Shown here: positions 24,093 through 53,563 of the stretch, in pieces | How positions within the stretch are numbered: position 1 is the stretch's first letter | Layout of the letters: every line of letters begins with the position of its first letter | Assembly: GCF_014200015.1 (NCBI RefSeq) | Contig: NZ_JACHOT010000001.1 | Coordinates: 1,054,001 to 1,118,000, forward strand | Source: Aminobacter niigataensis | GTDB taxonomy: Bacteria > Pseudomonadota > Alphaproteobacteria > Rhizobiales > Rhizobiaceae | Length of the DNA stretch: 64,000 nucleotides | Direction: 5' to 3' | The notes under the pieces: generated by a model | What the model saw: only the letters and a program-made list of their open reading frames with translations | Told to the model about the DNA's origin: nothing | The model's database searches: none | Translations under genes and position numbers: made by a program

Positions 24093-24103
24093 CCAGCACT
24101 CTC

Positions 24104-25432: not shown

Positions 25433-25461
25433 CAGGGAACTCCTTCGATCTGAGCTAATCA

Positions 25462-25474
25462 TGACTATTAGTCA
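25462..25474. promoter_or_regulatory. palindrome in the oxygenase/LysR divergent region
   Basis: A 13-base perfect palindrome, TGACTATTAGTCA, 30 bases before the oxygenase start and about 95 before the LysR start. It may be part of a binding site for the LysR protein; LysR sites usually contain a T-N11-A dyad. Confidence 0.35.
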
Positions 25475-25569
25475 GGAAATTGCGATACAAGGCCCTGGAT
25501 TGCAAATATGTAAGTGGCATTCTATCATAACAAAAAGATATTGAGCGCGAGACGAGCCGGCAGCCAACC

Positions 25570-28134: not shown

Positions 28135-28228
28135 TGCTCTCCCCTATTTGATCTGTCGAAATTCAACTGGATAGGTTCAGCGCGGGCCCTGCAGCGGGCA
28201 CGCGGCTTTGACCCGCGAACTGGTCTGC

Positions 28229-29233: not shown

Positions 29234-30885
29234 GATCTCTCCAATTCCATGGCCGCGCCGGGCACCTGGGTGACGACGCGGCGTCCGTCCAAAACACGTT
29301 CCAACCAGCCTATTTCCATTTCGGGCACCGACCTGAGCAGCAGGTCGGTGTAGTCGTCGAAGGGGGGCGACAGCACCGCAGACTTGACGCCTTCGCGCAC
29401 CACCTTGCCGCGATGCATGACCGCGACACGGTCGGCAATGGCGCGAACGATGGCGATGTCGTGGGTGATGAACAGGTAAGAAACCGCCGTCTCCTCCTGC
29501 AGGCGCAGCAGGAGCTTCAAGATGCCCTCGGCCACCAGCGGATCGAGCGCCGAGGTCGGCTCGTCGCACAGGATCAGCTCAGGCTTGGCGGCAAGCGCGC
29601 GCGCTATGGCGATGCGCTGTTTCTGGCCGCCCGACAGCTCGGCTGGAAAGCGATCGAGGAACTGCGGTCCCATCTCGATCTGGTCGAGCAGTTCCTTGAC
29701 CCGCTCGGTCTTGGCCTTGCCACGCATGCCGAAATAAAGCGTCAGCGGACGACCGACGATGTCGCGGATCTTCTGCCGCGGGTTCATCGCCGTATCCGCC
29801 ATCTGGTAAATCATCTGGATGCGCCGCAACTGCTCACGTGAGCGGTCCTTGCGTGCGGGCGGCAACGCTGCACCGTTGAACGAGACCGCCCCTGCCTTCG
29901 GTTGCAGGAGGCCTGTTATGACGCGGGCAAGCGTGGATTTGCCCGAACCGGATTCGCCGACGACGGCAAGCGTCTGCCCCTTGGGCAGGATCAGGGAAAC
30001 ATCGTGCAGGACATCCATCGCCGAGTAGCCGGCGGTCATCCCCGCGACGCGCAGCTGTGCGTCGTCCGAGGGTAGCGCCTCCTGCCGCATGGTCTGGCGG
30101 ATGCTGACCAAGGCTTTGGTGTAGTCTTCACGCGGCGCTTCGATGATCTGCCGCGTCGAGCCGTATTCCACCGTCTTGCCATGGCGCAGCACCATGATGT
30201 CGTCGGAAATCTGCGCCACCACGGCAAGATCATGCGTGATGTAGAGCGCTGCCGTCTGCGTCTCGACAATGGCATGCTTGATCGCGGCGAGAACCTCGAT
30301 CTGGGTGGTGACATCAAGTGCCGTGGTCGGCTCGTCGAAAACGATGAGCTCCGGGTTCGCGCACAGCGCCATGGCGGTCATGGCCCGCTGGAGTTGGCCA
30401 CCGGAGACCTGGTGCGGGAAACGTTCGCCGAAGGTATCTGGGTCGGGCAGCCCGAGAATGCCGAAGAGGTAGGCCGCCCGCTTCGTCGCCTCCGCCCGCG
30501 TCATGATGCCGTGGCGGATGCTCGCCTCGATCACCTGGCGCCCGAGCTTGTGGGCAGGATTGAATGCGGCGGCCGCCGACTGCGCGACATAGGCAACGCG
30601 CGCGCCGCGAACGGCACGGATGCCGCGCAAGCCAAGCTTGGCGATGTCCTGTCCGTCGAGCAGGATCTGCCCGCCCTCTATGCGCACCCCGCCCCTGCCA
30701 TAAGCCAGGGCCGACAGCCCGATCGTCGACTTGCCGGCACCCGACTCGCCAATGAGACCGAGTACCCTGCCCTTGCCGACGTCGAAGGAAACATCATCGA
30801 CCAGCACCAGATTGGTCGCAGTGCCATCGGGCTGGCGCGCGGTGACCTCGATACGCAAGTTCTTGACGGACAGCATCTCAGGCAT
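29230..30885 (-). CDS. fused double ATPase of a peptide-type ABC transporter (DppD-DppF type)
   Basis: A 551-residue protein with two nucleotide-binding domains in one chain. The first (about 5-260) has Walker A GESGAGKST, signature VSGGQLQRA and Walker B LIVFDEPT. The second (about 280-530) has GESGSGKST, LSGGQKQR and LILCDEPTS. It powers the DppB/DppC-like permeases encoded just before it. Its start overlaps the permease stop by 8 bases and its stop overlaps the dipeptidase start. Confidence 0.93.
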   Translation of the reverse strand: MPEMLSVKNLRIEVTARQPDGTATNLVLVDDVSFDVGKGRVLGLIGESGAGKSTIGLSALAYGRGGVRIEGGQILLDGQDIAKLGLRGIRAVRGARVAYVAQSAAAAFNPAHKLGRQVIEASIRHGIMTRAEATKRAAYLFGILGLPDPDTFGERFPHQVSGGQLQRAMTAMALCANPELIVFDEPTTALDVTTQIEVLAAIKHAIVETQTAALYITHDLAVVAQISDDIMVLRHGKTVEYGSTRQIIEAPREDYTKALVSIRQTMRQEALPSDDAQLRVAGMTAGYSAMDVLHDVSLILPKGQTLAVVGESGSGKSTLARVITGLLQPKAGAVSFNGAALPPARKDRSREQLRRIQMIYQMADTAMNPRQKIRDIVGRPLTLYFGMRGKAKTERVKELLDQIEMGPQFLDRFPAELSGGQKQRIAIARALAAKPELILCDEPTSALDPLVAEGILKLLLRLQEETAVSYLFITHDIAIVRAIADRVAVMHRGKVVREGVKSAVLSPPFDDYTDLLLRSVPEMEIGWLERVLDGRRVVTQVPGAAMELERS

Positions 30886-31705
30886 TGTCGCGCGCGCCCT
30901 TCAGGCTGGACGTGGTGTTGATCAGCCAGTCGACGACGAGGTTCACGCAGACGACCAGGAAGGCGATCGCGGCACCCGGCGTGAGCGACGCCGAAACACC
31001 GAAGATGATGCCGTCCTTGTTGTCCTTGACCATGCCGCCCCAGTCGGCAATCGGCGGCTGGATGCCGAGCCCCAGGAACGAGAGCGTCGACAAGAACAGG
31101 ATCGAGAAGGCGAAACGCAGACCGAACTCGCCAAGCAGCGGCGCCAGCGTGTTGGGCAGGATCTCGCGGAAGATGATCCAGAGCTTGCCCTCGCCGCGCA
31201 GCCATGCGGCCTCGACGAAATCCATGACGCTGACATCGAGGGCGACGGCGCGGCCGACACGGTAGACCCGCGTCGAGTCGATGACGGCCATGACGACGAT
31301 CAGGATCCAGATGTTCTGTGGCAGCACCGCAAGCACGACCAGCGCCAGGATGAGCGCGGGGACGGACATCAGGAGATCGTTCAGCCGCGACAGCAGCTGG
31401 TCGACCACGCCGCCGGAGACCACCGCGGTGAAGCTCAGGAACATGCCTATGGAAAACGAGATCACCGTTGCCGACAGTGCCACAAAAAGCGTTGCCCGCG
31501 CGCCGTAGATCAGCCGCGACAGCAGATCGCGTCCAAGGTTATCGGTGCCGAGCAAGAAGTCGCCGCCCATCGGCGCCCAGACTTCGCCGACAATGGCGCT
31601 TTCATCATAGGGCGCGATGACAGGAGCGAAGATCGCGCAGGCGAAGACAAGCAATATGCCCGCAAGGCCGATCCGCGCGCTCATTGGCATTGATCGCAAT
31701 GTCAT
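30878..31705 (-). CDS. DppC-like ABC transporter permease
   Basis: A 275-residue inner-membrane permease with about six helices and the coupling EAA loop EAAWLRGEGKLWIIFREILPN. The N-terminal GTDNLGRDLLSRLIYGARATL segment is typical of DppC/OppC. The start overlaps the DppB-like stop (ATGA). Confidence 0.93.
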   Translation of the reverse strand: MTLRSMPMSARIGLAGILLVFACAIFAPVIAPYDESAIVGEVWAPMGGDFLLGTDNLGRDLLSRLIYGARATLFVALSATVISFSIGMFLSFTAVVSGGVVDQLLSRLNDLLMSVPALILALVVLAVLPQNIWILIVVMAVIDSTRVYRVGRAVALDVSVMDFVEAAWLRGEGKLWIIFREILPNTLAPLLGEFGLRFAFSILFLSTLSFLGLGIQPPIADWGGMVKDNKDGIIFGVSASLTPGAAIAFLVVCVNLVVDWLINTTSSLKGARDNA

Positions 31706-32724
31706 CGTGGATGCCTCAGTCGCGGATTGGCCAGGATCGAGACGATGTCGGCGACCATGTTCAACACGATGTACAAGGCAGCGAAGATCAGCCCGCAGCC
31801 CTGGACGACAGGCATGTCGCGCATCGTCACGGCGTCCACCATGTATTGGCCGATGCCGGGGTAGACGAACACCACCTCGACGACGACCACACCGACGACG
31901 AGCGCGGCAAGATTGAGCGCAATCACCGTGACGACCGGCGCTATCGCATTGGGCGCGGCGTGCTCGGCAATGATGCGCAACGCCGAAAGCCCCTTGAGTT
32001 CGGCGGTCTCGACATAGGGCGAAGACATGACGTTCATGATCGCCGAGCGGGTCATGCGCATCATGTGCGCCAGCACCACGATCACAAGTGTCATCACCGG
32101 AAGGGCTATCGTCGCAAGCCGCTCGCCAAGACCCATGCCGTCATAGACGGTGGCCGGAAAGGAAGCGACGCCCAGCTGGACGGTGAAGAACTGGATCAGC
32201 AGGTAGCCGATGAAGAATTCGGGCAGCGAGATCGCGGCCAAAGACAGGATGCTGATGACCTTGTCGGGGATGCGATTGCGGTAGAGCACCGCGACCATGC
32301 CAAGTGCCAGTGCCAACGGGATCGCGATGAGTGCTGCAACGCCGGCAAGCAGTAGCGAATTGCCAAGCCGCTTCCATATCTGGTCGCCGACCGAGTTGCG
32401 ATTGGACCAGGAGGTACCGAAGTCGCCCTGGGCGATGCCGCCGAGCCAACTGAGATAGCGCTCGGTCATCGGGCGATCGAGATCGAGCTCCTCGCGGATG
32501 TTGGCGATGGCCTGCGGGGTGGCATCCTGCCCGAGATAGGTCGATGCGAAATCGCCCGGCAAGGCCTCGACGCCGCCGAAGATCAGCATCGATGCCGCGA
32601 TCAGCAAGCCGAAGCCAAGGAGAATGCGGCGCACGACCATTTGGCCGAGCGAATTGCGCAGTAGCGTCTGCCGGGCAGACGCTAATGGCTTGCTTGATAC
32701 CGGCTCTTCGAGCGACGATGTCAT
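31702..32724 (-). CDS. DppB-like ABC transporter permease, first gene of the operon
   Basis: A 340-residue permease with about six helices. Its EAA loop is ETAELKGLSALRIIAEHAAPN and its N-terminal block (VVRRILLGFGLLIAASMLIF) is typical of DppB. ATG 32724 is taken as the start on length; a GTG-type or upstream ATG at 32748 is possible. It heads the permease-ATPase-dipeptidase-binding protein operon. A candidate operator shared with two other promoters lies about 165 bases upstream. Confidence 0.9.
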   Translation of the reverse strand: MTSSLEEPVSSKPLASARQTLLRNSLGQMVVRRILLGFGLLIAASMLIFGGVEALPGDFASTYLGQDATPQAIANIREELDLDRPMTERYLSWLGGIAQGDFGTSWSNRNSVGDQIWKRLGNSLLLAGVAALIAIPLALALGMVAVLYRNRIPDKVISILSLAAISLPEFFIGYLLIQFFTVQLGVASFPATVYDGMGLGERLATIALPVMTLVIVVLAHMMRMTRSAIMNVMSSPYVETAELKGLSALRIIAEHAAPNAIAPVVTVIALNLAALVVGVVVVEVVFVYPGIGQYMVDAVTMRDMPVVQGCGLIFAALYIVLNMVADIVSILANPRLRHPR

Positions 32725-32888
32725 CGTGCGCCCATGCCCTGCGGGCACGCAATCGATGTCGTATCCCTATCGACACAGAAGTCTCTCAAGCCACCCTCCC
32801 CGTCTCGGCCGCGAAGTTACAGGCGCAAGCCCGACCCTCGTCATTGGCGGTTTCGTTGTTCCCAGAAACCGAAAGCTAGCGGCACTGT

Positions 32889-32902
32889 TCACACATGTCT
32901 AG
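32889..32902. promoter_or_regulatory. operator-like site, copy 1 (transporter operon)
   Basis: TCACACATGTCTAG, the reverse complement of CTAGACATGTGTGA. It matches the two other copies at 36337-36350 and 44657-44670 at 12 of 14 positions and lies upstream of the DppB-like gene. Confidence 0.55.
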
Positions 32903-32950
32903 TACGATCAGCGCCAAACACGCCGCTTTGTGCAATTGGGGAAGTTGCGC

Positions 32951-34228
32951 CTACTGCAGCTGCGAAACCGAGCGTGCCTCGTGCACTCCATTCCAGGCTG
33001 GCAGGGCTGCCGCAATCTCGGCCTCGCTAGCGTAGGAATCGCGCGCAAAGCGGTCGAGGCGGAACCGCGTCGTGTCAACAAAAGGCTTCTGGCCGAGCAC
33101 CAGTTCGGCGGAAAGACGGCCAAGGCCGGGGCCGTGGCTGACCCCCGTTTCGTTGTCGCCGCCGACCGCCACGACGTTCGTCGTGCCCGGCACGTGACCG
33201 ACGATCAAGCCACTGTCCGGGGTGTAGCAGGGCACGCCCTGGGCCCAGCTCGATACCTTCGAACCGCGGAGTGGCGGGAAGATTTTCTGCAGCCTTGCCA
33301 ACTCGTCGTCGTCCATCGCCTGCATCAGATCGACATTGCGCGGCTGGCCGGGTTCGATCCAGTCGTCGCCCGACTTGTAGTAGGGCTGGTAGTGGCGACC
33401 GGTGCCCCACATGACCGCGCCAAAGCTCTCGCGCAACCAAAGGCGCAGTTCGCGGCATTGCACCGTCGGCAGCGTGGACGGAAGCCCTCGCCCGTCAGTG
33501 ACGATGCGCGTGGCCATGACCCTGAGCAGCGGCAGACGCCAACCGAGCCCCTTGAGCACTTCGTTGTTCCAGGCACCGGCGGCGACGACGACGCCATCGG
33601 CTTCGAACTCGCCCTTGTCGGTCTCGATCTTCACATGACTCCCGGCATCGTGAATGCCGGTGACTGCCGTTCCATTGCGGAACACGCCGCCCATCCTGAC
33701 GATCTCGTCGACCATGACGCCGGTCGCAAGCCTGGTGTCGAGTTGAATGCCATGCGGATTGAAGGCGCCGGAATGCACCTGGGTCGCGTCGATCAGGCCC
33801 CTGGTCTTCTCGCCGATCTGCTTGGCGCTCAGATCCTGCATTTCCGCTGGCGCGTAAGGCGAATCCAGGACGGGGCGAACGAAGCGCTCTCGCCCCGCCT
33901 CGGTCAGCGCCATCATCAACGTGCCGTTCGGGCGATAGCCGATCTCGACGCCGAGATCATGGATCGCGCGATAGAAGTCGAGACCGTATTGCTGAAGCTG
34001 CAGGCCCTCCTCGCCAAGCGGGAACATGCCCGCGGACCAATGGGAGACAAACCCGGCACCCGCACCCGTTGTTGCCGCGGCCGGTTCGCGCGCTTCGATG
34101 ACGGTCACCTGCCGCGCTCCCGCCTTCAGCAGGTGGAAGGCTGTCGAGCAGCCGATGATGCCGGCGCCAATGACGGCGATGCGCTTGCCTGCGAACCCCA
34201 CTTCGGCTGAACCTGTCGTTGTAGCCAA
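32951..34228 (-). CDS. FAD-dependent amine/amino-acid oxidoreductase (DAO family)
   Basis: A 425-residue flavoprotein of the DAO superfamily that includes glycine oxidase, sarcosine oxidase and DadA. The dinucleotide-binding motif is IAVIGAGIIGCSTAFHLL near the N-terminus, and a typical C-terminal GLGRLSAELVLGQKP segment follows. A TTG start at 34228 is preferred: GAGGAGG lies 7 bases upstream and no in-frame ATG has a site. It sits 29 bases after the S9 peptidase stop, so both are one operon. The substrate is probably an amino acid or N-methyl amine; not resolved. Confidence 0.82.
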   Translation of the reverse strand: MATTTGSAEVGFAGKRIAVIGAGIIGCSTAFHLLKAGARQVTVIEAREPAAATTGAGAGFVSHWSAGMFPLGEEGLQLQQYGLDFYRAIHDLGVEIGYRPNGTLMMALTEAGRERFVRPVLDSPYAPAEMQDLSAKQIGEKTRGLIDATQVHSGAFNPHGIQLDTRLATGVMVDEIVRMGGVFRNGTAVTGIHDAGSHVKIETDKGEFEADGVVVAAGAWNNEVLKGLGWRLPLLRVMATRIVTDGRGLPSTLPTVQCRELRLWLRESFGAVMWGTGRHYQPYYKSGDDWIEPGQPRNVDLMQAMDDDELARLQKIFPPLRGSKVSSWAQGVPCYTPDSGLIVGHVPGTTNVVAVGGDNETGVSHGPGLGRLSAELVLGQKPFVDTTRFRLDRFARDSYASEAEIAAALPAWNGVHEARSVSQLQ

Positions 34229-34257
34229 TGCTTTTCCTCCTCTGTCGCTGCGCCTAG

Positions 34258-36225
34258 CTAGTTGGTCGGACGCACATATTTGCCAAGCCACCACAGGATG
34301 CGGGCGGCACTATCGAGATATTCCGGGTAGCTGCGGATGCTGTGACCGGCATTCGGATAGATGATGAGCGAACTTGGCGCGCCGGACCTGATTGCCGCAA
34401 AATGGCACTCCTCGGCCTGGCCGACCGGCGTGCTCCTGTCGAGCGCGCCCGCCATGACCAGTGTCGGAACCGTCGCCTTGTGCTTGAAGAAGGCAGGGCT
34501 ACGCGAAAAATAGGCACCGTCGGCTGCCCACGGCGACGACTCGAGCATGATCTCGTCGAATTCGGGGATCTGCGACGTCCGATGCTGGCTATACCAGTCG
34601 CCCACGGGCGAAATCGGTATCGCGGCAGCGAAGCGATCGCTTTGCGATGGCAGCCAGGCGGACATGAAGCCGCCATAGCTGGTGCCGGTAACGGCGATCC
34701 GCTTGTCGTCAGCCCAGCCCTTGGCGACAAGCGCCTCGATGCCGCTGGTAATGTCGAGCGCGTCGGCACCACCCATGTCGCCCTTGACCGCGCGGGCAAA
34801 GGCATCGCCCCTGCCCGTGCTTCCCCTGGGGTTGGGTAAGAAGACCGTCCATCCTTGGCTGACCAGGATGGGAGCGGCGCGCATCCTTGCCATCCAGCGG
34901 TTGCGGTGCGCCGAGATCGGTCCGCCATGGATGTCGACCAGAAGCGGCGTAGGGCTTGTCGCGCCATGGGGCCGCACGACCCACCCCTGGATTTCCAACC
35001 CGTCCGGCGCGCTCCAACTGACAGGTTCGATCAGCCCGCAGCGCGACATCGCCTCTTGTGCCTGGGGCGCTGCGAACGATGCCACCTCGCGAATGGCGCC
35101 AGAGACCACTTCGGCAAGGAACGGCGGGCGCGAATAGGACTCGGCAACGAACAGGCTGCCGCTCGCTCCGATCGGATATGAACTCGGGACCCATTCGCCA
35201 TTGGTAAGGTCGCTGGACGACCAGCTTTCGGTGGCGACGGATTGTTCGAGGTCGTAGTCGCCTGTCGCGGTTTGGTGGCCGCGCGCACCCGTGAAATGGA
35301 TGACTGTCGGCGAGCGCCATTCGATGGACGTCACGTCGATGCCCAGCGTATCAGGTGTTTCGACCTTGCCGGTTTTCAGATCGAAGATGGACAACAGGCC
35401 GGAAACCAAGCCCCGGTCGCTGCAAAATGCCTCGATGAAGGCCACGCTGCCACCGTCCGCAGCGCCCCTGACACAGCCAAGCTGGTCGGCAGGTGTATGG
35501 ACTGTCGTCACGGCTCCCGAACTCGCATCGACAAGCGAAAGACGCGCCTCGTACCAACTGCCTTCGCTATGACGATCACTTGATATGGCGGCAATCATAC
35601 CACTGCCGCACCAGCTGGCTTCCCACACATTCAGCGGCGGCGTGGTGAGACGCTGCGGCCCGTCGTTGCCGTCCCACGTCCAGATGGTGCGCCAGAGTTC
35701 GTCACCGTGTTCAGAGCGCACCTCTGGAAGCCATGCCGGGCCGTTGGATTGCACCTTCTGGCTATAGCCGCCGTGGATGCCGGCAAGGTCTGCAGCCGCT
35801 CCAGCAACGACCACAAGCAAAGACGCGCCATCCGGCGACCAGTCGATCTGCTCGATACGTCCCGGCACTGCTTGCGCATTTGAACAGCCGTCGCCCGACC
35901 ATAGCTCGATACGGTCGGCCGCGGGTTCGTCGCCAGCGCATGCCACTGCCAAGGTTTGACCGTCGGGAGAAAGTCTGATCTGCCGTGTTTCGCGCTCATT
36001 GAGGCATTCGAGGTCGCCGCCGTCGCGACCCGTCCGGCAAAGCCTGCTGGTGACGCCCTCTTCCAGGGATTTCGCGAAGCTCTGTCCGATAAAATAGAAA
36101 TGCATTGCATCCTCGTGGCCACACAAGGAACGCGCGCCGAATACGTGCCCGCCCGGCGCCAGCAGCGCGCCGTAGAATGTCTGTGTCGCCACATGTTCAG
36201 GCGACGAGCGAAAATCGCGGTCCAT
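34258..36225 (-). CDS. S9 family (prolyl oligopeptidase-type) serine peptidase
   Basis: A 655-residue peptidase with an N-terminal beta-propeller-like part and a C-terminal alpha/beta hydrolase domain. The catalytic triad is visible: S516 in GTSYGGF, D596 in GALDRS, H628 in NAGHS. It resembles acylaminoacyl peptidases and dipeptidyl peptidases. No signal peptide is seen, so it is probably cytoplasmic. A GGAGGAG site lies before the ATG at 36225. Divergent from the TetR gene, with a palindromic site between. It would suit cleavage of imported peptides. Confidence 0.87.
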   Translation of the reverse strand: MDRDFRSSPEHVATQTFYGALLAPGGHVFGARSLCGHEDAMHFYFIGQSFAKSLEEGVTSRLCRTGRDGGDLECLNERETRQIRLSPDGQTLAVACAGDEPAADRIELWSGDGCSNAQAVPGRIEQIDWSPDGASLLVVVAGAAADLAGIHGGYSQKVQSNGPAWLPEVRSEHGDELWRTIWTWDGNDGPQRLTTPPLNVWEASWCGSGMIAAISSDRHSEGSWYEARLSLVDASSGAVTTVHTPADQLGCVRGAADGGSVAFIEAFCSDRGLVSGLLSIFDLKTGKVETPDTLGIDVTSIEWRSPTVIHFTGARGHQTATGDYDLEQSVATESWSSSDLTNGEWVPSSYPIGASGSLFVAESYSRPPFLAEVVSGAIREVASFAAPQAQEAMSRCGLIEPVSWSAPDGLEIQGWVVRPHGATSPTPLLVDIHGGPISAHRNRWMARMRAAPILVSQGWTVFLPNPRGSTGRGDAFARAVKGDMGGADALDITSGIEALVAKGWADDKRIAVTGTSYGGFMSAWLPSQSDRFAAAIPISPVGDWYSQHRTSQIPEFDEIMLESSPWAADGAYFSRSPAFFKHKATVPTLVMAGALDRSTPVGQAEECHFAAIRSGAPSSLIIYPNAGHSIRSYPEYLDSAARILWWLGKYVRPTN

Positions 36226-36334
36226 CAGGCTCCTCCACCAACGGCATCATTACCTTGGCAAGGGGCTCCTCCCCCTCGCCCGCAGAGGCTTTCGCTGCGT
36301 CAGCGTGGGCAACATTGCAGCCAATTCGCCGCCT

Positions 36335-36352
36335 GTCTAGACATATGTGTAC
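36335..36352. promoter_or_regulatory. operator-like site, copy 2 (S9 peptidase / tetR divergent promoter)
   Basis: GTCTAGACATATGTGTAC, which contains the near-perfect 14-base palindrome TAGACATATGTGTA. The same 16 bases occur, inverted, at 44657-44672. Located 110 bases upstream of the S9 peptidase start and about 155 upstream of the TetR start. Confidence 0.65.
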
Positions 36353-36505
36353 TTTCGCGCCATGTCTGTGCGGAGAGGTCTCTGCAGCGACGTGGTGAGC
36401 GAACGCGCCTTGGTCCATGCGCCGGGCGGCGGCCCTGCTCAAAATAGTCGATGCGAAGAGCCGACAGTTGCTCGTATAACGATGAAAATAATAGGGGGAT
36501 CGCCA

Positions 36506-37204
36506 GTGCCACCATCGCAAAGCAAGGGGCCGGAACAGATAGCGGCTCATCAGGTCGACAGCGTTGGCGACAGCTCGTCGAGGACCAGCAAGAACGACTG
36601 GCTCAATCTGGCTATCAATACGCTGATCGATGACGGGATCGACGAGGTCAAGATCCAGGTGATGGCCAAGAAACTCGACGTCTCGCGCTCGAGTTTCTAC
36701 TGGTTCTTCAAGAGCCTGCAGGACCTTCACGACCAGCTCCTGCAGAACTGGCTGCAAAACAACACGACCCCGATCATCGAACACGCAATGCGCCCTGCCC
36801 CCACCATCAACCGGGCCATTCTGAACGTCTTCGAGTGCTGGGTGGACGAGCGCCTATTCGACCCAAAACTGGATATCGCCGTGCGATTGTGGGCGCGACG
36901 CGAACCGGCTGTCCGTACGGTGGTCCATGAAGCGGACAGGCGGCGCGTCGATGCCATCAAGGCGATGTATCTGCGCTACGGTTATGATGACGAGAACGCG
37001 TTTATCCGCGCCCGCGTGCTCTACTACATGCAGATCGGCCACTTCACGCTCGATTTGGGCGAAACCCTGGACGCCAGGGTCTCGCATGTTCCGGCCTACC
37101 TGCTCGCCTTCAGCGGGCAAGAACCGGAGCCGGAGGACGTGCGGTTGTTCGACGCTTTCGCGGCACGCTTCGCCGTTTCCGACCCAAGTGCGGAAGTGCC
37201 CTGA
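36506..37204 (+). CDS. TetR-family transcriptional regulator
   Basis: A regulator of about 232 residues. The helix-turn-helix has LAINTLIDDGIDEVKIQVMAKKL followed by VSRSSFYWFFKSLQDL, and the C-terminus is a helical ligand-binding domain. A GTG start at 36506 is preferred because AGGGGGA lies 8 bases upstream; ATG codons at 36347 and 36482 are in frame but lack sites. It stands between the peptidase/oxidase and sarcosine oxidase operons, next to one of three matching operator-like sites, and is the best candidate to bind all of them. It ends 3 bases from the convergent soxG stop. Confidence 0.8.
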   Translation: MPPSQSKGPEQIAAHQVDSVGDSSSRTSKNDWLNLAINTLIDDGIDEVKIQVMAKKLDVSRSSFYWFFKSLQDLHDQLLQNWLQNNTTPIIEHAMRPAPTINRAILNVFECWVDERLFDPKLDIAVRLWARREPAVRTVVHEADRRRVDAIKAMYLRYGYDDENAFIRARVLYYMQIGHFTLDLGETLDARVSHVPAYLLAFSGQEPEPEDVRLFDAFAARFAVSDPSAEVP

Positions 37205-37207
37205 GGG

Positions 37208-37744
37208 TCAGGCTTCCGCGCTTGCGATATTGCCGCCGACCGTTGCCACCCAGCTCCAGAAATAGGCGGCAAGGCTACGATCGACATGAATGCGAATCCT
37301 CTCGCCGTGGCGGTAGACGACGGCATTGATACCCGCAAACGAGATGGCCGCCGAAGCGCTCCCCTTGCCTGGATCAAGCGTGGTTGCACGCGCGACAAGT
37401 TCGGCTGCGGCAGCGCCTTCGATCTCGAATATCAGCATCCCAGCGCTCACCGTGCTCACGGCGAAACCTTGTTCGTGCCAGCCCTGAGCGACGGTGGACG
37501 GAAGGGCAGACACGACCAGCAGCCGGTCGCGCGCGACCTGAACCGTGTAGGTATCGCCCATTGCCTGCCCGAATGCGCCCACCGGCTGCAGGGCTATGCC
37601 CCATGCCTTGCTCCAGGTCGCGAGATCGCCGCTGACGAGAAACTGGTTCAGGCCGGACACCGAACGGATCGCAAAGCTGGGCGTATCGATCACAGCCGTC
37701 TGCCAATCCGGCATGGCTGTCCATTTTTCGGCGAGATTACGCAT
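37208..37744 (-). CDS. soxG: sarcosine oxidase gamma subunit
   Basis: A 178-residue subunit of heterotetrameric sarcosine oxidase, recognised by its place after soxA and by the family pattern FAIRSVSGLNQFLVSGDL with a C-terminal VYRHGERIRIHVDRSLAAYFW. It starts 8 bases inside soxA, so the two are coupled. Structural role in the tetramer. Confidence 0.9.
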   Translation of the reverse strand: MRNLAEKWTAMPDWQTAVIDTPSFAIRSVSGLNQFLVSGDLATWSKAWGIALQPVGAFGQAMGDTYTVQVARDRLLVVSALPSTVAQGWHEQGFAVSTVSAGMLIFEIEGAAAAELVARATTLDPGKGSASAAISFAGINAVVYRHGERIRIHVDRSLAAYFWSWVATVGGNIASAEA

Positions 37745-40613
37745 TGAGCCGTTCTCCTGAAGGATCGAAGGCGCAAGGGCCGGTGATCGTCGCGCGCCTC
37801 ACCATGCCGAGATGCTGGATGTCGATCGTCTCGCCATGGCGCGCGGCTCCGCGTTCGATCAGGCCAAGTGCTACCGGCCGCGCCAGCGTCGGGCTGTGAT
37901 AGCTCGAGGTCACGAAACCCTGGCTCCGGAGCTTGCCGCCCTCGCGCGAGATACCATGCGCGCCGGTCGCCAGCGGCTCTTCGCCTCGGGCAACAGCAAG
38001 GCCAACCAGCTGTTGCCGGCTGTCAGGCATGGCCACCTCGGTGAACAGCGAGCGGCGGCCGACATATTCGCTCTTGCGTTTGGCACGCGGCCCATCGACG
38101 CCGAGGTCGTGCGGCAAGGTGGTGCCGTCGGTGTCCTTGCCGATAACGATGTACCCCTTTTCTGCCCGCAGGATCATCAAGGCCTCAAGCCCGATGGTGA
38201 CCGCATCGAATGCCTTGCCGGCCTCGTGCATCCGCGCCCACAGGCGCTCCGCCCGGTCGGCGCGTATCGACACCTCGTAGCTGCGGTCGCCGGTGAAGCT
38301 GACGCGGGCGACACGAACCGGTTCGGTCTCGAACATGCCCTCGCCTATCGCCATGTGCGGAAGGTCCGTATCGTCCAGCGACAGGCCGAGATTCAGTGCC
38401 ACGAGCAAATTCTTGGCGTTCGGCCCGGAAACGGTCAGCGTCGCCATCTCGGAGGTGGCATTGTGAATGTAGACCGCATCGCGGCCGAAGCGGTCCTGTC
38501 GCCATTCCTCCAGCCGGGCATGAACAGCTGCGACATGCGAACTCGAGCAGGAGACGACAAAGCGGTGCTCGTCCAGCCGCACCAGAATGCCGTCGTCGAA
38601 GACAACGCCATTTTCCGACAGCATGAAACCGTAGCGGCAGCGGCCGGGCTTCAGCGTCGACATGGTATTGTAGTAGATGAAATCGACAAATTCCGCAGCC
38701 TTCGGGCCCATCACCTCGATCTTGCCGAGCGTCGAGCCATCGAACAGCGCCACCGACTGGCGGGCACGCCGCGCCTCGTCCTGGATCGCCCGGTCGGCAT
38801 CCGCGCCTCCATAATGGGCGGGCCGCAGCCAGCCGCCATATTCCTGGAAGACAGCGCCTTGGGCGCGATGGACATTTTCAAGCGGCAAACGGCGCACCGG
38901 CGACATCAGCTCGCCGCCACGCGCGCCGGCAAAGCTTGCCAGCGGCACCGGCGTGAAAGGCGGGCGGTAGGTGGTGGTGCCGACCTCGGGGACGGTTCGC
39001 CCGGTGGCGGCGCCCATCAATGCCAGTCCAGCTAGGTTCGACGTCTTGCCCTGGTCGGTCGCCATGCCAAGCGTGGTGTAGCGCTTGAGGTGCTCGACCG
39101 AGATGAAGTTTTCGCGGGCAGCGAGTTCTACGTCCTTGGCGGTGACGTCGTTCTGATAGTCGATCCAGACGCGGCCCCTGGCACCGGGGATCGGCCAGGC
39201 AGCAAGGATGCCACCCGTCGCTTCCACGCCCGTGCTGCGCGGCGCGGGCGACGTGGTCGCGCCCGGCATTGCCTTGGCGGCACCTTCGAATACGCCAGAC
39301 AGGGAAACTGCACCTGCCGCCGCGCCGACGACAGCCATGCCCTCGACAGGATCGCCCGGCAGGAAGGCAGCTTGCGCCTCGCTCCAGACGAGTTTGCCCC
39401 TAGCCTGGCAGAACAGATGGATGGTCGGCGTCCAGCCGCCGGAAACCGCAACGCAATCTGCTTCAAGCACCGTGCCGTCGTCCAGCACGGCGCCCTCGAC
39501 GCGCACTTTTCCGCGCGCCGCAGCGACGAGGCGACCGGCCATCCGGCTCACACCCTCAGGCGCTGCAGGAGCCCCGTCCTTCCGGCTATCGACCAGGGTT
39601 ACATCGGCACCGGCTTCAGCCAGGGCGCCGGCGACCTCGTAGGCGCTGTCGTTGTTGGTGGCGACGATGATGCGCCGGCCGACGAGCACGGCAAAGCGCC
39701 TGAGATAGATCAACGCCGCATCAGCCGACATGATGCCCGGCAAATCGTTGTTGGCGAAAGGCAATGGGCGCTCGATGGCGCCGGTCGCCAGCACGATCCG
39801 GCGCGGCCTGACCCGCCAAAGCGTATCGGGCCTGCCGTCGACGTGACGCTGGTTCAGCCCGACGAGATTGTGGTCGTAAATACCGAAGGCAGTGGTCGAC
39901 GGCAGGACAATGTGCCCAGCGGCGGAAAGTTCGGCGATCGTCTCGGCGACCCAGGCAGCGTCCGGCTTGCCGTCGATTTCGCCGGTGCGATGGTTGAGCG
40001 ATCCGCCAGGCTCGCGCTGGCCATCAACCAGAATGACGGACTGCCCCGCGCCAGCTGCGAGCTTTGCCGCTGCCAAGCCTGCAGGCCCGGCACCGACCAC
40101 AAGCACGTCGCAATGACGGTTGATCTGGTCGGCCGGACCGGACGATTGCCATCCCGTATCGACCTCGCCCAACCCCGCGACCGCGCGGATGCGCGGCTCG
40201 AACAGATGCCAATCCGGCCACATGAAGGTCTTGTAGTAGAAGGCGGCGGGAATGAAGCGCGAGAAGCGGTCGATGAAGGCATTGCGGTCGGCAGCAGCGT
40301 TCGGCGACGCATTGACGCTCTTGGCGATCATGCCTTCGAGCACGAACTCGGTGGTGGCGCGGGTGTTTGGTGTGGTGGCGACACTGCCGCTGATGTCGAC
40401 CAGCGCGTTCGGCTCTTCGACGCCGGCGCCCCAGATGCCACGCGGACGGTGGTACTTGAAGCTGCGGCCGACCACGGCAACGTCGCTGGCAAGCAGGGCG
40501 GAGGCGATGGTGTCGCCTTCAAAGCCCTGCAGCTTGCGTCCGTCGAAGCTGAACGAGACCGGGCGGGAGCGGTCGATGGCGCTGCCGCCGGAAGACAGGC
40601 GCGTGGCGGTCAT
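37737..40613 (-). CDS. soxA: sarcosine oxidase alpha subunit
   Basis: A 958-residue subunit of normal length. It has an N-terminal ferredoxin-like part (about 20-100, FDGRKLQGFEGDTIASALL), an NAD/FAD-type dinucleotide fold (VVGAGPAGLAAAKLA near 170), and a C-terminal GcvT/aminomethyltransferase-like folate domain. The enzyme demethylates sarcosine to glycine with formation of methylene-tetrahydrofolate and hydrogen peroxide. Its start overlaps soxD (ATGA). Confidence 0.95.
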   Translation of the reverse strand: MTATRLSSGGSAIDRSRPVSFSFDGRKLQGFEGDTIASALLASDVAVVGRSFKYHRPRGIWGAGVEEPNALVDISGSVATTPNTRATTEFVLEGMIAKSVNASPNAAADRNAFIDRFSRFIPAAFYYKTFMWPDWHLFEPRIRAVAGLGEVDTGWQSSGPADQINRHCDVLVVGAGPAGLAAAKLAAGAGQSVILVDGQREPGGSLNHRTGEIDGKPDAAWVAETIAELSAAGHIVLPSTTAFGIYDHNLVGLNQRHVDGRPDTLWRVRPRRIVLATGAIERPLPFANNDLPGIMSADAALIYLRRFAVLVGRRIIVATNNDSAYEVAGALAEAGADVTLVDSRKDGAPAAPEGVSRMAGRLVAAARGKVRVEGAVLDDGTVLEADCVAVSGGWTPTIHLFCQARGKLVWSEAQAAFLPGDPVEGMAVVGAAAGAVSLSGVFEGAAKAMPGATTSPAPRSTGVEATGGILAAWPIPGARGRVWIDYQNDVTAKDVELAARENFISVEHLKRYTTLGMATDQGKTSNLAGLALMGAATGRTVPEVGTTTYRPPFTPVPLASFAGARGGELMSPVRRLPLENVHRAQGAVFQEYGGWLRPAHYGGADADRAIQDEARRARQSVALFDGSTLGKIEVMGPKAAEFVDFIYYNTMSTLKPGRCRYGFMLSENGVVFDDGILVRLDEHRFVVSCSSSHVAAVHARLEEWRQDRFGRDAVYIHNATSEMATLTVSGPNAKNLLVALNLGLSLDDTDLPHMAIGEGMFETEPVRVARVSFTGDRSYEVSIRADRAERLWARMHEAGKAFDAVTIGLEALMILRAEKGYIVIGKDTDGTTLPHDLGVDGPRAKRKSEYVGRRSLFTEVAMPDSRQQLVGLAVARGEEPLATGAHGISREGGKLRSQGFVTSSYHSPTLARPVALGLIERGAARHGETIDIQHLGMVRRATITGPCAFDPSGERLNA

Positions 40614-40879
40614 TGGGCGTGCCCCGCGCCGTCAAGCGATGTCGAGGACAGGACCTGATGGCTGACACTGTCGCGCTCCATGACAAAGAATTCGCCGCAG
40701 TTCATGTGCACCCAGACCTCGCGGACCGCGCCCTTGGGATTGTCGCGCATGTAGAGATAATTTGCCCAGCGATCGGCGGGGGCGTCAGCGCCGTCGGGCC
40801 GCAGGTTTCCGGCTTCGCCGCCGAAATGGAATTCGGTCTCGTCGCGAGCGCCGCAGAACGGGCAGTGAAAAAGCTGCAT
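40610..40879 (-). CDS. soxD: sarcosine oxidase delta subunit
   Basis: An 89-residue zinc-binding subunit that begins MQLFHCPFCGARDETEFHFGG, with the Cys and His ligands expected for SoxD and the typical ANYLYMRDNPKG and NCGEFF segments. It lies between soxB and soxA in the conserved order, 21 bases after the soxB stop. Confidence 0.95.
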   Translation of the reverse strand: MQLFHCPFCGARDETEFHFGGEAGNLRPDGADAPADRWANYLYMRDNPKGAVREVWVHMNCGEFFVMERDSVSHQVLSSTSLDGAGHAQ

Positions 40880-40900
40880 GGTTTACTCCAGGTCGACGAC

Positions 40901-42154
40901 CTAATGCGCGATGCCGGAACCGGCAGCCTCGTCCAGCAAGCGGCCGGTGACGAAGCGATCCAGATCGAAGGGGCGGCTGATATCGTGATGCTTGCCGGTC
41001 GCCAGCAGATGCGCGAGCAAAGTGCCGCCGGCCGGAATGGCCTTGAAGCCGCCTGTGCCCCATCCGCAATTGAGGAACAGACCAGGCAACGGCGACTCGC
41101 CGATGATCGGCGAAGAGTCCGGCACGACATCGACGATGCCGGCCCATTGCCGCATCAGCTTGAGCTGGCCGAAGGCCGGAAACATTTCGAGCAGGCCTGA
41201 AATGACACCCTCGAGCGTCGGCAGATTGCCGCGCTGGCCATAGGATGGAACCCGGTCGAGCGCGCCGCCGATGACGATCTCGCCCTTGTCGGACTGGCTG
41301 ACGTAAACGCCGGTGCCTGGCGACAGAACAACCGTATCGAGGATCGGCTTGATCGGTTCGGAGACGCAGGCCTGAAGGGCATAAGAATTGATCGGCAGGC
41401 GTAAACCCGCCTTGGCAGAAAGCACCGAGGAATGGCCTGCCACCGCCATACCGATGCGGTCGGTGCGAATGGTACCGCGCGAGGTCTGCACGCCGCGACA
41501 GCGGCCGCCCTCGACGATGAAGTCGGTGACCTCGCAGTTCTGGATGATGTCGACGCCGAGCGCGCTTGCAGCACGCGCATATCCCCAGGCCACTGCGTCG
41601 TGACGAGCCGTGCCCGCCCTACCCTGCCAGACGCCGCCGAACACCGGAAAACGTGCGTCTGGCGCAAAGTTGAGAACGGGCGCGACGCGGCGCACATCGT
41701 CCACTGAAAACATCTCGGCATCGACGCCGTTGATCTGCATCGCATTGACGGTGCGCGCGCCGATCTCCATCTCGCCGGTACTGTGGCACAGGAACACCAT
41801 GCCGCGCTTCGAGAGCATGACGTTGTAGTTCAGTTCCTTCGACAGCCCCTCATAGAGCCGGTGCGCCAGGCCGTAGATCGCCACGCTCTCGGGATAATAA
41901 TAGTTGGAGCGCACGACCGTCGTGTTGCGGCCGGTGTTGCCGCCGCCGATCCAGCCCTTTTCAAGCACGGCAACGTTGGTGACGCCGTGGCTCCTGGCGA
42001 GATAATAGGCCGTCGCGAGCCCATGTCCGCCGCCCCCGATGACCACCGCGTCATAGATCTTCTTCGGTTCGGGCGAGCGCCAGGCGGGCTGCCAGCCCTT
42101 CTGGCCGGCCAAACCTTCCTTGATCAGCGATAGCGCGGAGTAGCGGCGGGTCAT
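40901..42154 (-). CDS. soxB: sarcosine oxidase beta subunit
   Basis: A 417-residue flavoprotein that carries the catalytic site of heterotetrameric sarcosine oxidase. It has the N-terminal family pattern MTRRYSALSLIKEGL, the FAD fold AVVIGGGGHGLATAYYLA (about 37-53), and the C-terminal NCGWGTGGFKAIPA. The start at 42154 fits SoxB length and has AGGAA upstream; the frame extends further without support. It follows the DMGDH-like gene by 52 bases. Confidence 0.95.
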   Translation of the reverse strand: MTRRYSALSLIKEGLAGQKGWQPAWRSPEPKKIYDAVVIGGGGHGLATAYYLARSHGVTNVAVLEKGWIGGGNTGRNTTVVRSNYYYPESVAIYGLAHRLYEGLSKELNYNVMLSKRGMVFLCHSTGEMEIGARTVNAMQINGVDAEMFSVDDVRRVAPVLNFAPDARFPVFGGVWQGRAGTARHDAVAWGYARAASALGVDIIQNCEVTDFIVEGGRCRGVQTSRGTIRTDRIGMAVAGHSSVLSAKAGLRLPINSYALQACVSEPIKPILDTVVLSPGTGVYVSQSDKGEIVIGGALDRVPSYGQRGNLPTLEGVISGLLEMFPAFGQLKLMRQWAGIVDVVPDSSPIIGESPLPGLFLNCGWGTGGFKAIPAGGTLLAHLLATGKHHDISRPFDLDRFVTGRLLDEAAGSGIAH

Positions 42155-42206
42155 TGAACCATTCCTGGAAACTTCCGTCTTGTGCCCGATGTGGATGATG
42201 CGAAGC

Positions 42207-44615
42207 TTACATCCGCATCCGGAGGCCCTGCGGATCATAGACAGAGGGCTGGACAACGCGGGCTGTACGCTCGACGCCGACAATATGGACCCTCAGCTCG
42301 GTGCCGACCTCGGCCAGTTCCCTGTCGACCAGCGCCAAAGCGAGGCTCTTACCGACGGTGTGGCCATATCCGCCAGAGGTGACGAAGCCAACCAGCCTGC
42401 CATCGTGCCAGACAGGCTCATAGCCGCTGGCATCGGCATCCATTGCATCCACTTCCAGTGTCGCCAACGCGCGTCCAGCGGTCGCCACCCTTTCAGCCAG
42501 TGCCGCCTGTCTGCCGATGAAATCCTTGTCGAAATCGATCCAGCGATCCATGCCGGTTTCGCCAGGCGTGTAGTCCTGCGTGAATTCGCGCGACCAGATG
42601 CCAAAACCTTTTTCCAGGCGCAGCGCGTTGACGGCGTTGAAGCCGTATTCGGTGATGCCGAGATCCCGGCCTGCCTCAAGCAGTGTGCGCCGCAGCGTGG
42701 CGTGTTCGTTGGCCCTGCAGTGGATTTCGAAACCGAGCTCGCCGACGACCGAGAGGCGCCCGACCTTGGCACGGATGAGGCCGACATCCAGGCTGCGGCA
42801 GCCGAGGAACCCGAAGGCCCCGTGCGACACGTCCTCATGCGTGACGCGCTCCAGCACCTTGCGTGCATTCGGACCGGCAAGCGAAAAGCCAACGACATCG
42901 TCGGAAATGTCACGCACCGCGATGCCTTCAGCGAGGTGCTGTTCAAACCAGCGCATATGCCACTGGCGCAGATAGTAAGACCCCATGATCCACCAGGTGC
43001 CATCGCCCCAGTTGAACACGGTAAGGTCGCCCTTGAGCTTGCCGTTTTCACCCAGCATCGGCGCCAGCCTAGCGCGACCGGGTGCAGGCAGCTTGCACGC
43101 GAGCAGGCGATCGAGCCAGGCTTCGGCGCTCGGCCCCTTTACCTCGTAGCGGGAGAAGGCTGAGATATCGAGCAGGCCGACGCCGGCACGCACCTTGCGG
43201 CATTCCTCGCCGATGAGATCAAAGGCATTGGAACGCTTCAGCGTCGGCGTTTCGACAAAAGCCTCTGGCGCGAAATAGAGCGGCACCTCCATGCCCCACG
43301 AACTGCCCCAGTGCGCACCCGCAGCGGTCATTGCGTCATGTGCGCCTGAGGTCTTGAGCTTGCGCCCCGCCGGCAGTTGTTCGTTGGGATAGCTCATGAC
43401 GAAGCGGCGCGAATAGAACTGGCCGGTGGTCTGCTTGATGTATTCGCGGTTGGAGGCGAAGTCGCCGTAGCGGGCGATGTCCATGCCGAACACGTCGGCC
43501 TGCGGTTCGCCATGGATCATCCACTCGGCCAGGGACTTGCCGACGCCGCCGCCCTGCAGGAAGCCCGCCATCACGCCGCATGCGACCCAGTAGTTCGGCA
43601 CGCCGCGAACCGGACCGACCAGAGGATTGCCGTCAGGCGAGAAGGTGAAGGCGCCGTTGACCCAGCGCTTGATGCCGGCTGTATCGAGACACGGATAGCG
43701 GCTGAAGCCGAGCGTCAGTTCGTCTGATATGCGGTCAGTGTCTTCCTGGATCAGTTCGATGCCGTAGTCCCACGGCGCGCCGTCCATGTTCCAGTGCTTG
43801 TGGTCGATCTCGTAGATGCCGAGCAGCAGCCCCTTTTGCTCCTGGCGCATATAGGTGAAGCCTTCGAGGTCGACGATGAGCGGCAGCTCCTTGTCGAGCG
43901 CCTGGATTTCGGGGATCGCCTCGGTGACCAGATAATGATGCTCCATCGGCGAGACCGGCAGGTCGATGCCGACCATGCGACCCACCTGCTTGGCCCACAG
44001 GCCGGCGGCATTCACGACATGCTCGGCGACAATGGTGCCTTTCTCGGTAACCACGTCCCATTGGCCGTCGGCGCGGCGGTTGAGCTCGAGCACGCGGTTG
44101 TGCTCGACAATCTCGGCGCCGCGCAGCTTTGCCGCCTTGGCATAGGCATGGACCGTTCCGGACGGATCGATATGGCCTTCGCGGGCCGCGTAAAGACCAC
44201 CGAGCATGCCGTCCGTGTTGAGGATGGGGCACTGCTTCTTGATCTCGTCGACACCGATCAGGTGGACATCGTCGATGCCCATGGTCTGGAAGACGCGGTA
44301 GGACGCCTGCAGCCATTCCCAACGATCGGGGGCGGACGCCACCGAAATACCGCCGGTCATATGCATGCCGATGTTCTGGCCGGATTCCTTCTCGATCTCG
44401 GAGAGAAGGTCGATCGTATAGGACTGCAGGGCTGCGATATTGGGATCTGCGTTGAGCGCATGGAAGCCGCCTGCGGCATGCCAGCTCGACCCGGCCGTCA
44501 GCACGTCGCGCTCGATCAGCACGACGTCGGTCCAGCCGTATTTCGCCAGGTGATAAAGCACCGAGGCACCGACCACGCCTCCGCCAATCACGACTGCCCT
44601 GTAGTTGGATTTCAT
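42207..44615 (-). CDS. dimethylglycine/sarcosine dehydrogenase-like FAD-GcvT protein
   Basis: An 802-residue protein: an N-terminal DAO-type FAD domain (VVIGGGVVGASVLYHL) with the covalent-FAD His46 in AGSSWHAAGG, then a C-terminal GcvT folate-binding domain. This is the layout of dimethylglycine dehydrogenase, which oxidises dimethylglycine to sarcosine. Sarcosine dehydrogenase is the close alternative. The start at 44615 follows GGGGGAGGA by 5 bases. It heads the operon with soxBDAG, and an operator-like palindrome lies about 40 bases upstream. Confidence 0.88.
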   Translation of the reverse strand: MKSNYRAVVIGGGVVGASVLYHLAKYGWTDVVLIERDVLTAGSSWHAAGGFHALNADPNIAALQSYTIDLLSEIEKESGQNIGMHMTGGISVASAPDRWEWLQASYRVFQTMGIDDVHLIGVDEIKKQCPILNTDGMLGGLYAAREGHIDPSGTVHAYAKAAKLRGAEIVEHNRVLELNRRADGQWDVVTEKGTIVAEHVVNAAGLWAKQVGRMVGIDLPVSPMEHHYLVTEAIPEIQALDKELPLIVDLEGFTYMRQEQKGLLLGIYEIDHKHWNMDGAPWDYGIELIQEDTDRISDELTLGFSRYPCLDTAGIKRWVNGAFTFSPDGNPLVGPVRGVPNYWVACGVMAGFLQGGGVGKSLAEWMIHGEPQADVFGMDIARYGDFASNREYIKQTTGQFYSRRFVMSYPNEQLPAGRKLKTSGAHDAMTAAGAHWGSSWGMEVPLYFAPEAFVETPTLKRSNAFDLIGEECRKVRAGVGLLDISAFSRYEVKGPSAEAWLDRLLACKLPAPGRARLAPMLGENGKLKGDLTVFNWGDGTWWIMGSYYLRQWHMRWFEQHLAEGIAVRDISDDVVGFSLAGPNARKVLERVTHEDVSHGAFGFLGCRSLDVGLIRAKVGRLSVVGELGFEIHCRANEHATLRRTLLEAGRDLGITEYGFNAVNALRLEKGFGIWSREFTQDYTPGETGMDRWIDFDKDFIGRQAALAERVATAGRALATLEVDAMDADASGYEPVWHDGRLVGFVTSGGYGHTVGKSLALALVDRELAEVGTELRVHIVGVERTARVVQPSVYDPQGLRMRM

Positions 44616-44656
44616 CGGTATCCTCCCCCTGTTGCGAGAAGGATTACCGACTATGG

Positions 44657-44672
44657 ACACATATGTCTAGAC
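44657..44672. promoter_or_regulatory. operator-like site, copy 3 (DMGDH-sox operon)
   Basis: ACACATATGTCTAGAC, identical over 16 bases to the inverted copy in the S9/tetR promoter. It lies 42 bases upstream of the DMGDH start codon, a typical place for repressor control. Confidence 0.65.
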
Positions 44673-47909: not shown

Positions 47910-47941
47910 AAGCCCCTCCCAAGGCGCTGGAGCCTATCCCA

Positions 47942-47958
47942 TTCCGATTGAATCGGAA
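47942..47958. repeat. 17-base palindrome inside the sugar operon
   Basis: TTCCGATT-G-AATCGGAA, arms of 8 bases around a single G. It resembles palindromic intergenic elements seen widely in rhizobial genomes (RIME-like), though I cannot confirm membership. It sits between the kinase and aldolase genes. Confidence 0.6.
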
Positions 47959-47989
47959 CGGGTCTCTGTCCGTTTGGCTGGAATGTCTT

Positions 47990-48009
47990 CAGCCGCTTGC
48001 GAGCGGCTG
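47990..48009 (-). terminator. stem-loop just after the aldolase stop
   Basis: CAGCCGCT-TGCG-AGCGGCTG, an 8-bp GC-rich stem with a 4-base loop, starting 2 bases after the aldolase stop on the transcribed strand. No T-run follows, so it could attenuate or process the message rather than end it. Confidence 0.5.
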
Positions 48010-48010
48010 G

Positions 48011-50556: not shown

Positions 50557-50577
50557 GGTGCGGAGGGTTTCCTTCGG

Positions 50578-52547: not shown

Positions 52548-52557
52548 TCGTCTCCGC

Positions 52558-53544: not shown

Positions 53545-53563
53545 GATCGGTGCTTCCGCTTCC

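Follow-up and report, generated by a model that had tools for sequence, protein, structure and literature searches.

Sarcosine catabolism in Pseudomonas is controlled by SouR, which, like GbdR, belongs to the AraC family of regulators. Regulators of the GbdR/SouR type respond to glycine betaine and its breakdown products (for GbdR, in the available part of PMC3572970). In a 64,000-nucleotide stretch of the genome of the soil bacterium Aminobacter niigataensis (contig NZ_JACHOT010000001.1, positions 1,054,001 to 1,118,000; called the window below), genes for a dimethylglycine dehydrogenase (DMGDH)-like protein and for sarcosine oxidase subunits (sox) are accompanied by three copies of a palindromic motif and by a TetR family gene, and here a protein of this other regulator family would take that role. 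TetR-type control of quaternary-amine catabolism is described in Alphaproteobacteria for BetI1 and BetI2 of Ruegeria pomeroyi; the accessible portion of that report gives the palindrome ATTGACG*CGTCAAT for BetI1, boxes sharing AAACTTGAAC for BetI2, and for the latter an arrangement of two overlapping palindromes that share a flank in a divergon (PMC12442346). This layout recurs in our material as paired overlapping sites with a shared flank in 25 of 80 homologous loci. However, the sequences differ, neither BetI palindrome given in that portion is the TRGACA-N4-TGTCYA of the present locus, and the BetI targets are choline and choline-sulfate genes rather than DMGDH and sox genes. The nearest printed operator among those compared is that of McbR, a TetR family regulator of Corynebacterium glutamicum, with the consensus TAGAC-N6-GTCTA (PMC2723105, in the part available); half-site and spacing agree with TRGAC-N6-GTCYA here. 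The likeness noted is between the sites and, in contrast to the present system, the same part of that paper places McbR in the sulphur and methionine metabolism of Actinobacteria, with S-adenosylhomocysteine as effector. No description of a TetR regulon such as the one proposed below was found among the top-ranked papers of searches in the open-licence literature, though one may exist in print elsewhere, and the regulator is not described in the available parts of papers on Brucella flavoproteins (PMC9045290) and on Bradyrhizobium blr7984 (PMC5017801).

Our analysis indicates that the three motif copies are very probably operators of the TetR protein encoded at 36482-37204, which would place an importer gene string and the DMGDH-soxBDAG genes in one regulon under ligand-relieved repression. 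As far as sequence comparison can tell, this would be a local TetR regulon of ordinary type, apparently new, with a well-supported operator. The first-pass annotation of the window had read the motif at three places, and exact CTAGACATRTGTG was found at all of them (32890-32902 on the minus strand, 36337-36349 on the plus strand and 44658-44670 on the minus strand); reading of the sequence also bore out its count of 16 identical bases in inverted orientation for copies 2 and 3, and of 12 matches out of 14 for copy 1. A pattern search of the window with CTAGACATRTGTG gave eight matches in total, the five non-exact ones all with three mismatches, compared to a mean of 11.5 for shuffles. Since eight matches are no more than the shuffles return, the signal is carried by the exact copies only. 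In the whole genome (5,283,805 bases), exact CTAGACATRTGTG is present at the same three places and nowhere else, so that there is no scatter through coding DNA, and the reversed pattern, used as a control, gave no match. Two places in the genome carry one mismatch. One of these (L004) overlaps the start of an open frame read as LuxR-type, and the other (L005) sits between frames read as a racemase and a permease, all by eye and without a profile; they score 6.0 and 6.4 bits with the matrix described below, and were dropped as regulon members because the right half-site is absent.

The operator was defined de novo from the best 80 of 470 TetR-homolog loci in named genomes, which come from Aminobacter, Mesorhizobium (most of them), Rhizobium, some Rhodobacterales and a few others. 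Representatives with less than 90% TetR identity numbered 22, and the promoters upstream of the TetR, DMGDH, soxB and S9 peptidase genes of 21 of them were used for a palindrome-constrained search. The window and A. aganoensis, whose TetR protein is the closest among the named relatives in these 80 loci (90% identical), were excluded from matrix training, and Aminobacter sp. HY435 was among the 21. The search returned TcTGGACAtataTGTCCAgA (width 20; 21 loci), and at a width of 18 the log-likelihood ratio was 190, versus 25-28 for three shuffled sets and 54-69 for three sets taken from elsewhere in the same loci. The predicted operator is the palindrome TRGACA-N4-TGTCYA, with half-sites TRGACA and TGTCYA around a 4-base spacer, which is often longer (TCTRGACA...TGTCYAGA). 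The sequence reported in the first-pass annotation is thus genuine, but its 13-mer consists of the left half and part of the right half of a larger palindrome. An 18-bp pattern that we had used initially, TSTAGACANNTGTSTACA, had the wrong centre, and was abandoned when the de novo search shifted the centre to TRGACA-N4-TGTCYA.

On scanning the window with the matrix, the three sites scored 26.4 (44653), 21.5 (36337) and 17.0 (32885) bits, and the next best score in the 64 kb was 6.4 bits. Training on 14 representatives (without Rhodobacterales, L076, L108 and L134) preserved the ranking, with scores of 26.6, 20.4 and 17.9 bits and a next best of 6.2, and this matrix detected promoter sites of 17-23 bits in three of the five Rhodobacterales representatives (L085, L091 and L110). 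Genome-wide comparison was by pattern searches, with matrix scores for individual places. When the genome was searched with an 18-bp symmetrised pattern, the three window sites ranked best, site 1, at two mismatches, being tied with one other place, C2:58062. The other matches, at three mismatches, were rejected; they amounted to 29 rows versus 25 for the reversed control, and some lay inside open frames. The tied place (C2:58062-58081) holds an 11.8-bit partial site approximately 50 bp upstream of a frame reading as a dehydrogenase dependent on flavin adenine dinucleotide (FAD), and a fourth regulon member there is possible but unproven.

Conservation of the site beside homologous TetR genes was then seen in two ways. 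CTAGACATRTGTG was present at no more than two mismatches in the promoters of 13 of the 22 representatives (A. aganoensis included); in the same test, 200 shuffled motifs averaged 0.35, with a maximum of 3. With the threshold set at 14 bits or more, 77 of the 80 loci had a site, as did 21 of the 22 representatives, and 68 loci had one no more than 420 bp upstream of TetR. The 80 loci contained 149 such sites, none less than 7 bases from another, and 140 of these lay at the promoters of TetR, DMGDH, soxB, S9 peptidase, solute-binding protein or permB genes, in windows that make up 8.7% of the bases. Because 21 of the 22 representatives went into the training of the matrix, the 80-locus tally is not independent of training; the training without A. 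aganoensis and the window, the training without Rhodobacterales and the soxB controls described below are more independent checks. Among the nine sites at non-standard positions, Pfam identified an MttB methyltransferase downstream in L081 and L090. In L086 the genes preceded in this way encode a Formyl_trans_N protein, read as a formyl-tetrahydrofolate deformylase, and an AraC/DJ-1-type regulator, and sites are found before an ETF subunit gene in L129 and before TRAP solute-binding proteins in L090 and L127 (all by Pfam). The presence of sites before MttB, formyltransferase-type, ETF and TRAP genes in some relatives points towards N-methyl (betaine/dimethylglycine/sarcosine) catabolism. Others of the nine are in L080 and L085, and one in L149 lies inside an open frame and is probably due to chance. 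In the 25 loci with two overlapping operators, the two centres are separated by 14 bp and TGTCTAGACA is common to all 25 (for example, Mesorhizobium L152, 9885-9916), pointing to a pair of adjacent dimers in the TetR/DMGDH divergon.

As controls we used 38 soxB upstream stretches unlinked to a near TetR gene, which differ in length and two of which are cut by contig ends; 18 belong to close soxB homologs (64-94%) and 20 to common, more distant ones (53-56%). A site was present in one stretch (G143, 24.7 bits), and this genome has a close TetR gene on a different contig from soxB. The other 37 stretches had no site. In 14 genomes lacking a TetR protein of at least 45% identity, the close soxB homologs had none upstream (0/14), nor had any of the 20 distant soxB genes, four of which are from genomes with a near TetR (G000, the genome studied here, and G108, G073 and G217). 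A strict pattern, to which operator 3 has no mismatches, matched in 30 of the 247 genomes of the family. The matches fell at 33 distinct places (hand count), with 10 at a distance of up to approximately 10 kb from a TetR homolog (identity 45% or more), 13 of the form TTTRGACA-N4-TGTCYAAA and 10 others. The conservation linked to TetR, together with the soxB controls, supports the earlier proposal that the TetR protein would be the binder and the three sites a single regulon.

An N-terminal TetR_N helix-turn-helix places the protein in the TetR family, as does the presence of palindromic operators both at the promoter of its own gene (operator 2 in the divergon of the TetR and S9 peptidase genes) and beside target genes. 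A PDB profile search with a 21-sequence profile gave matches to MtrR, NalD, AcrR, TtgR and TetR over the helix-turn-helix, and in an alignment of the protein with 20 homologs (21 sequences) the recognition-helix region VSRSSFYW was nearly invariant. In NCBIfam, only MtrR and TetR models matched, weakly and far under their cut-offs. The protein does not group with BetI, given the absence of a BetI model match in NCBIfam and an operator unlike the betI boxes in the available part of PMC12442346. Translation may start at the in-frame ATG at 36482 instead of the GTG at 36506 chosen in the first-pass annotation.

Repression by a dimer that is released by a metabolite of the pathway is the usual mode of action in the TetR family. 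In A. niigataensis, the TetR dimer would bind TRGACA-N4-TGTCYA with one recognition helix per half-site and, we infer, would repress rather than activate. Without ligand, it would act through operator 2 on its own gene and on the divergent string of S9 peptidase, FAD oxidase, Opp-type ABC (ATP-binding cassette) importer, M19 dipeptidase and solute-binding protein genes, with the internal operator 1 as a reinforcement in this lineage, and through operator 3 on the predicted DMGDH-soxBDAG operon. A metabolite from the breakdown of N-methyl amino compounds (betaine, dimethylglycine, sarcosine or a related N-methyl compound) would release TetR, permitting import and stepwise N-demethylation into the folate one-carbon pool.

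A number of observations weigh against this interpretation. The Pfam TetR_N match (E 8e-05, 22.8 bits) is slightly under the cut-off of 24, and the 80 loci, being a capped selection of the best matches and mostly Mesorhizobium (22 representatives at <90% identity), are not 80 independent cases. No site of at least 14 bits was found in L087, L098 and L133, the last of which has only 56 bases before the match, and in 12 of the 80 loci the 420 bp upstream of TetR are free of sites. The one site of L090 (15.6 bits) precedes TRAP/MttB genes at approximately 3 kb from TetR, and L127 has just two sites, both weak (15.7 and 14.2 bits) and neither of them at TetR. With the 14-representative matrix, maximum scores were 13.3 bits in L090 and 12.0 bits in L098, and training on the five Rhodobacterales alone gave a weak motif of similar form (28.0). 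Three genomes with a TetR protein of 45-51% identity encoded elsewhere (G221, G065 and G150) had no site at the unlinked soxB. A second TetR gene of the same genome has a look-alike site, TTTGGACAAGTGTGTCTAAA. Site 1 was not found between the same two genes in three of four close relatives, namely two M. soli genomes and Aminobacter sp. HY435 (L077, L078 and L079; best scores <0). Finally, none of the three sites has a recognisable sigma-70-like promoter, and the promoters are therefore assumed; unrecognised sigma-70-like promoters are common for Alphaproteobacteria.

The motif could belong to another regulator of the same genes, such as the product of the LysR gene (25570-26472) or some global regulator, with TetR a mere neighbour. 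This LysR gene does lie beside Rieske oxygenase genes in the same stretch, and soxB homologs occur in 175 of the 247 family genomes, a TetR of at least 45% identity in far fewer. However, across 80 loci whose neighbouring genes vary, the motif accompanies TetR and stands just upstream of it in 68 of them, it is missing from close soxB homologs of the 14 genomes without a near TetR and from the Rieske/LysR genes of the window, and a palindrome of 16-20 bp has the form expected for the TetR family, all of which makes this explanation highly improbable. We also consider it improbable that the sites are shared with a second TetR type, the 219-aa frame at C1:465013 beside an MFS-like efflux gene, so that the circuit would be a mixed one and not a single regulon. 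The two kinds of site agree in spacing and in the half-site core RGACA/TGTCY, but the flanks are TTT/AAA as against TCT/AGA, the look-alike scores 13.4 bits with the main matrix, below sites 1-3, and its recognition-helix region reads VSRQTVYNHHGDK compared to VSRSSFYWFF (by eye). The look-alike site itself (C1:465013-465032, TTTRGACA-N4-TGTCYAAA) lies between the TetR-like and MFS-like frames, as read by eye, and was rejected as a regulon member on account of this position; sites of this type are present in 12 further genomes of the 247 (hand count), and it looks like the operator of a different circuit.

The first-pass annotation had placed all three copies in promoters, which is fairly secure only for the strong sites 2 and 3. 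Sites occupying the position of operator 2 occur in A. aganoensis, M. soli and Aminobacter sp. HY435, and chance was excluded as the source of sites 2 and 3 because they are rare genome-wide and conserved. Site 1 is separated by 47 bp from the end of the FAD-oxidase gene upstream and by 159 bp from the permease ATG used downstream, within one same-strand gene string that is probably under the control of site 2 already. The operators might be sites 2 and 3 only, site 1 being chance or a relic and the importer being controlled solely by read-through from operator 2. At 17.0 bits site 1 is the weakest of the three, it has no counterpart in M. soli (two genomes) or Aminobacter sp. HY435, and a place inside a 462-aa open frame elsewhere in the genome (C1:1692727) scores 18.2 bits, above site 1. 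Against this, a stronger counterpart (20.2 bits) occupies the same place in A. aganoensis, the next score in the window is just 6.4 bits, and in L086, L110 and L129 sites precede the loci's own solute-binding protein or importer genes. A relic at site 1 is thus possible, if somewhat doubtful; presence in A. aganoensis and absence from M. soli and HY435 suggest a probable yet lineage-specific internal operator. The importer is likely to be under operator 2 in any case.

Table 1. Predicted operators and genes of the putative TetR regulon in the window (positions are those of the window).
Feature	Position	Strand	Sequence or context	Evidence and remarks
Operator 1 (weak, probable)	32884..32903		ACTGTTCACACATGTCTAGT; between FAD oxidase and permease genes	17.0 bits, third in window
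Operator 2	36336..36355		TCTAGACATATGTGTACTTT; between S9 peptidase (-) and TetR (+)	21.5 bits, second in window
Operator 3	44652..44671		TATGGACACATATGTCTAGA; 36 bp upstream of DMGDH start codon	26.4 bits, window best
TetR family regulator	36482..37204	+		start ATG 36482 in frame; first-pass annotation, GTG 36506
S9 (prolyl oligopeptidase family) peptidase	34258..36225	-	first gene under operator 2	Pfam Peptidase_S9, 138.5 bits
DAO-type FAD oxidoreductase	32951..34294 (start approximate)	-		Pfam DAO, 170.8 bits
Peptide/nickel-type ABC permease (B)	31702..32724 (start approximate)	-		NCBIfam, below model cut-offs
ABC permease (C)	30878..31705	-		NCBIfam, below model cut-offs
Fused two-domain ABC ATPase	29230..30885	-		NCBIfam, two stretches for most models
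Peptidase_M19 (membrane dipeptidase family)	28229..29233	-		Pfam Peptidase_M19, 278 bits; start read by eye
SBP_bac_5 solute-binding protein	26557..28134	-		Pfam
Dimethylglycine-dehydrogenase-like protein	42207..44615	-	under operator 3	Pfam DAO, FAO_M, GCV_T, GCV_T_C (scan of longer ORF from 44660)
soxB	40901..42157 (start approximate; ORF open to 42283)	-		TIGR01373, 717 bits
soxD-like small subunit, 89 aa	40610..40879	-		open frame, by position, without profile
soxA	37737..40613	-		TIGR01372, 1302 bits
soxG-like	37208..37744	-		Pfam SoxG, 27.8 bits (cut-off 21, above); TIGR01375, 29 bits (cut-off 144, below)

The predicted targets (Table 1) include a DMGDH and a heterotetrameric sarcosine oxidase, as judged by the DAO-FAO_M-GCV_T-GCV_T_C architecture of the former and by soxA and soxB matches above the NCBIfam cut-offs. 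The nearest solved chains to the DMGDH-like protein are dimethylglycine dehydrogenases (E ~1e-170), and the 89-aa frame has a CPFCG-type sequence, which we take to be a mark of soxD. Catabolism of N-methylated amino compounds is the natural reading of this gene set, with uptake perhaps as peptides. A gene at 28134-29117 was considered and rejected as being in the wrong frame, the M19 gene being the one listed.

Elsewhere in the window, 22968-26472 encodes a Rieske oxygenase, a flavin/2Fe-2S reductase and their own LysR gene. The nearest solved chains to the oxygenase are 3vca, 4qup and 3n0q, followed by carnitine monooxygenase, and no operator was found at the Rieske/LysR genes by matrix scan of the window; the set is probably a separately controlled quaternary-amine demethylase. 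On the other side, 44791-55093 holds a neighbouring sugar or polyol cluster, also without an operator in the window matrix scan, with genes for a GMC oxidoreductase, an FGGY kinase, a DeoC-type aldolase, a glycerol-3-phosphate dehydrogenase-like protein, an aldo-keto reductase, a DeoR/LsrR-type regulator and a sugar-type ABC ATPase.

A sister clade of TetR proteins (L030-L032, L034 and L035; 39-43% identical in the loci read) resembles the present one in its upstream sites, such as ATGTACATTAGTGTCAAT (ATGTACAT...TGTCAA), with best scores of 18-21 bits per locus. It differs in its neighbours, a divergent OYE/FadH-type oxidoreductase being present in L030, L034 and L035 (profile for L034 only, below cut-off). 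A proC-like gene is found in L030 (below cut-off), and L035 has a frame read as a betaine-type solute-binding protein (no NCBIfam match). We presume that this neighbourhood resembles the clusters for proline-betaine (stachydrine) demethylation. It is conceivable, and we put it forward only tentatively, that proteins of this TetR subfamily are dedicated, in Rhizobiales and Rhodobacterales alike, to the control of N-demethylation and of the folate one-carbon supply. Dimethylglycine/sarcosine-type substrates would fall to one clade, whose operator in some genomes also governs MttB, PurU-like, ETF and importer genes, and proline-betaine-type substrates to the sister clade, both clades reading variants of TGNACA-N4-TGTNCA and perhaps sensing a common signal of the one-carbon pathway rather than a single substrate.

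The finding supplies an operator and a regulator, both open to testing, for catabolism of the dimethylglycine/sarcosine type in Alphaproteobacteria. With the operator as a guide, the substrate of the odd cluster of peptidase, oxidase and importer genes could be sought and regulon members identified in further genomes.

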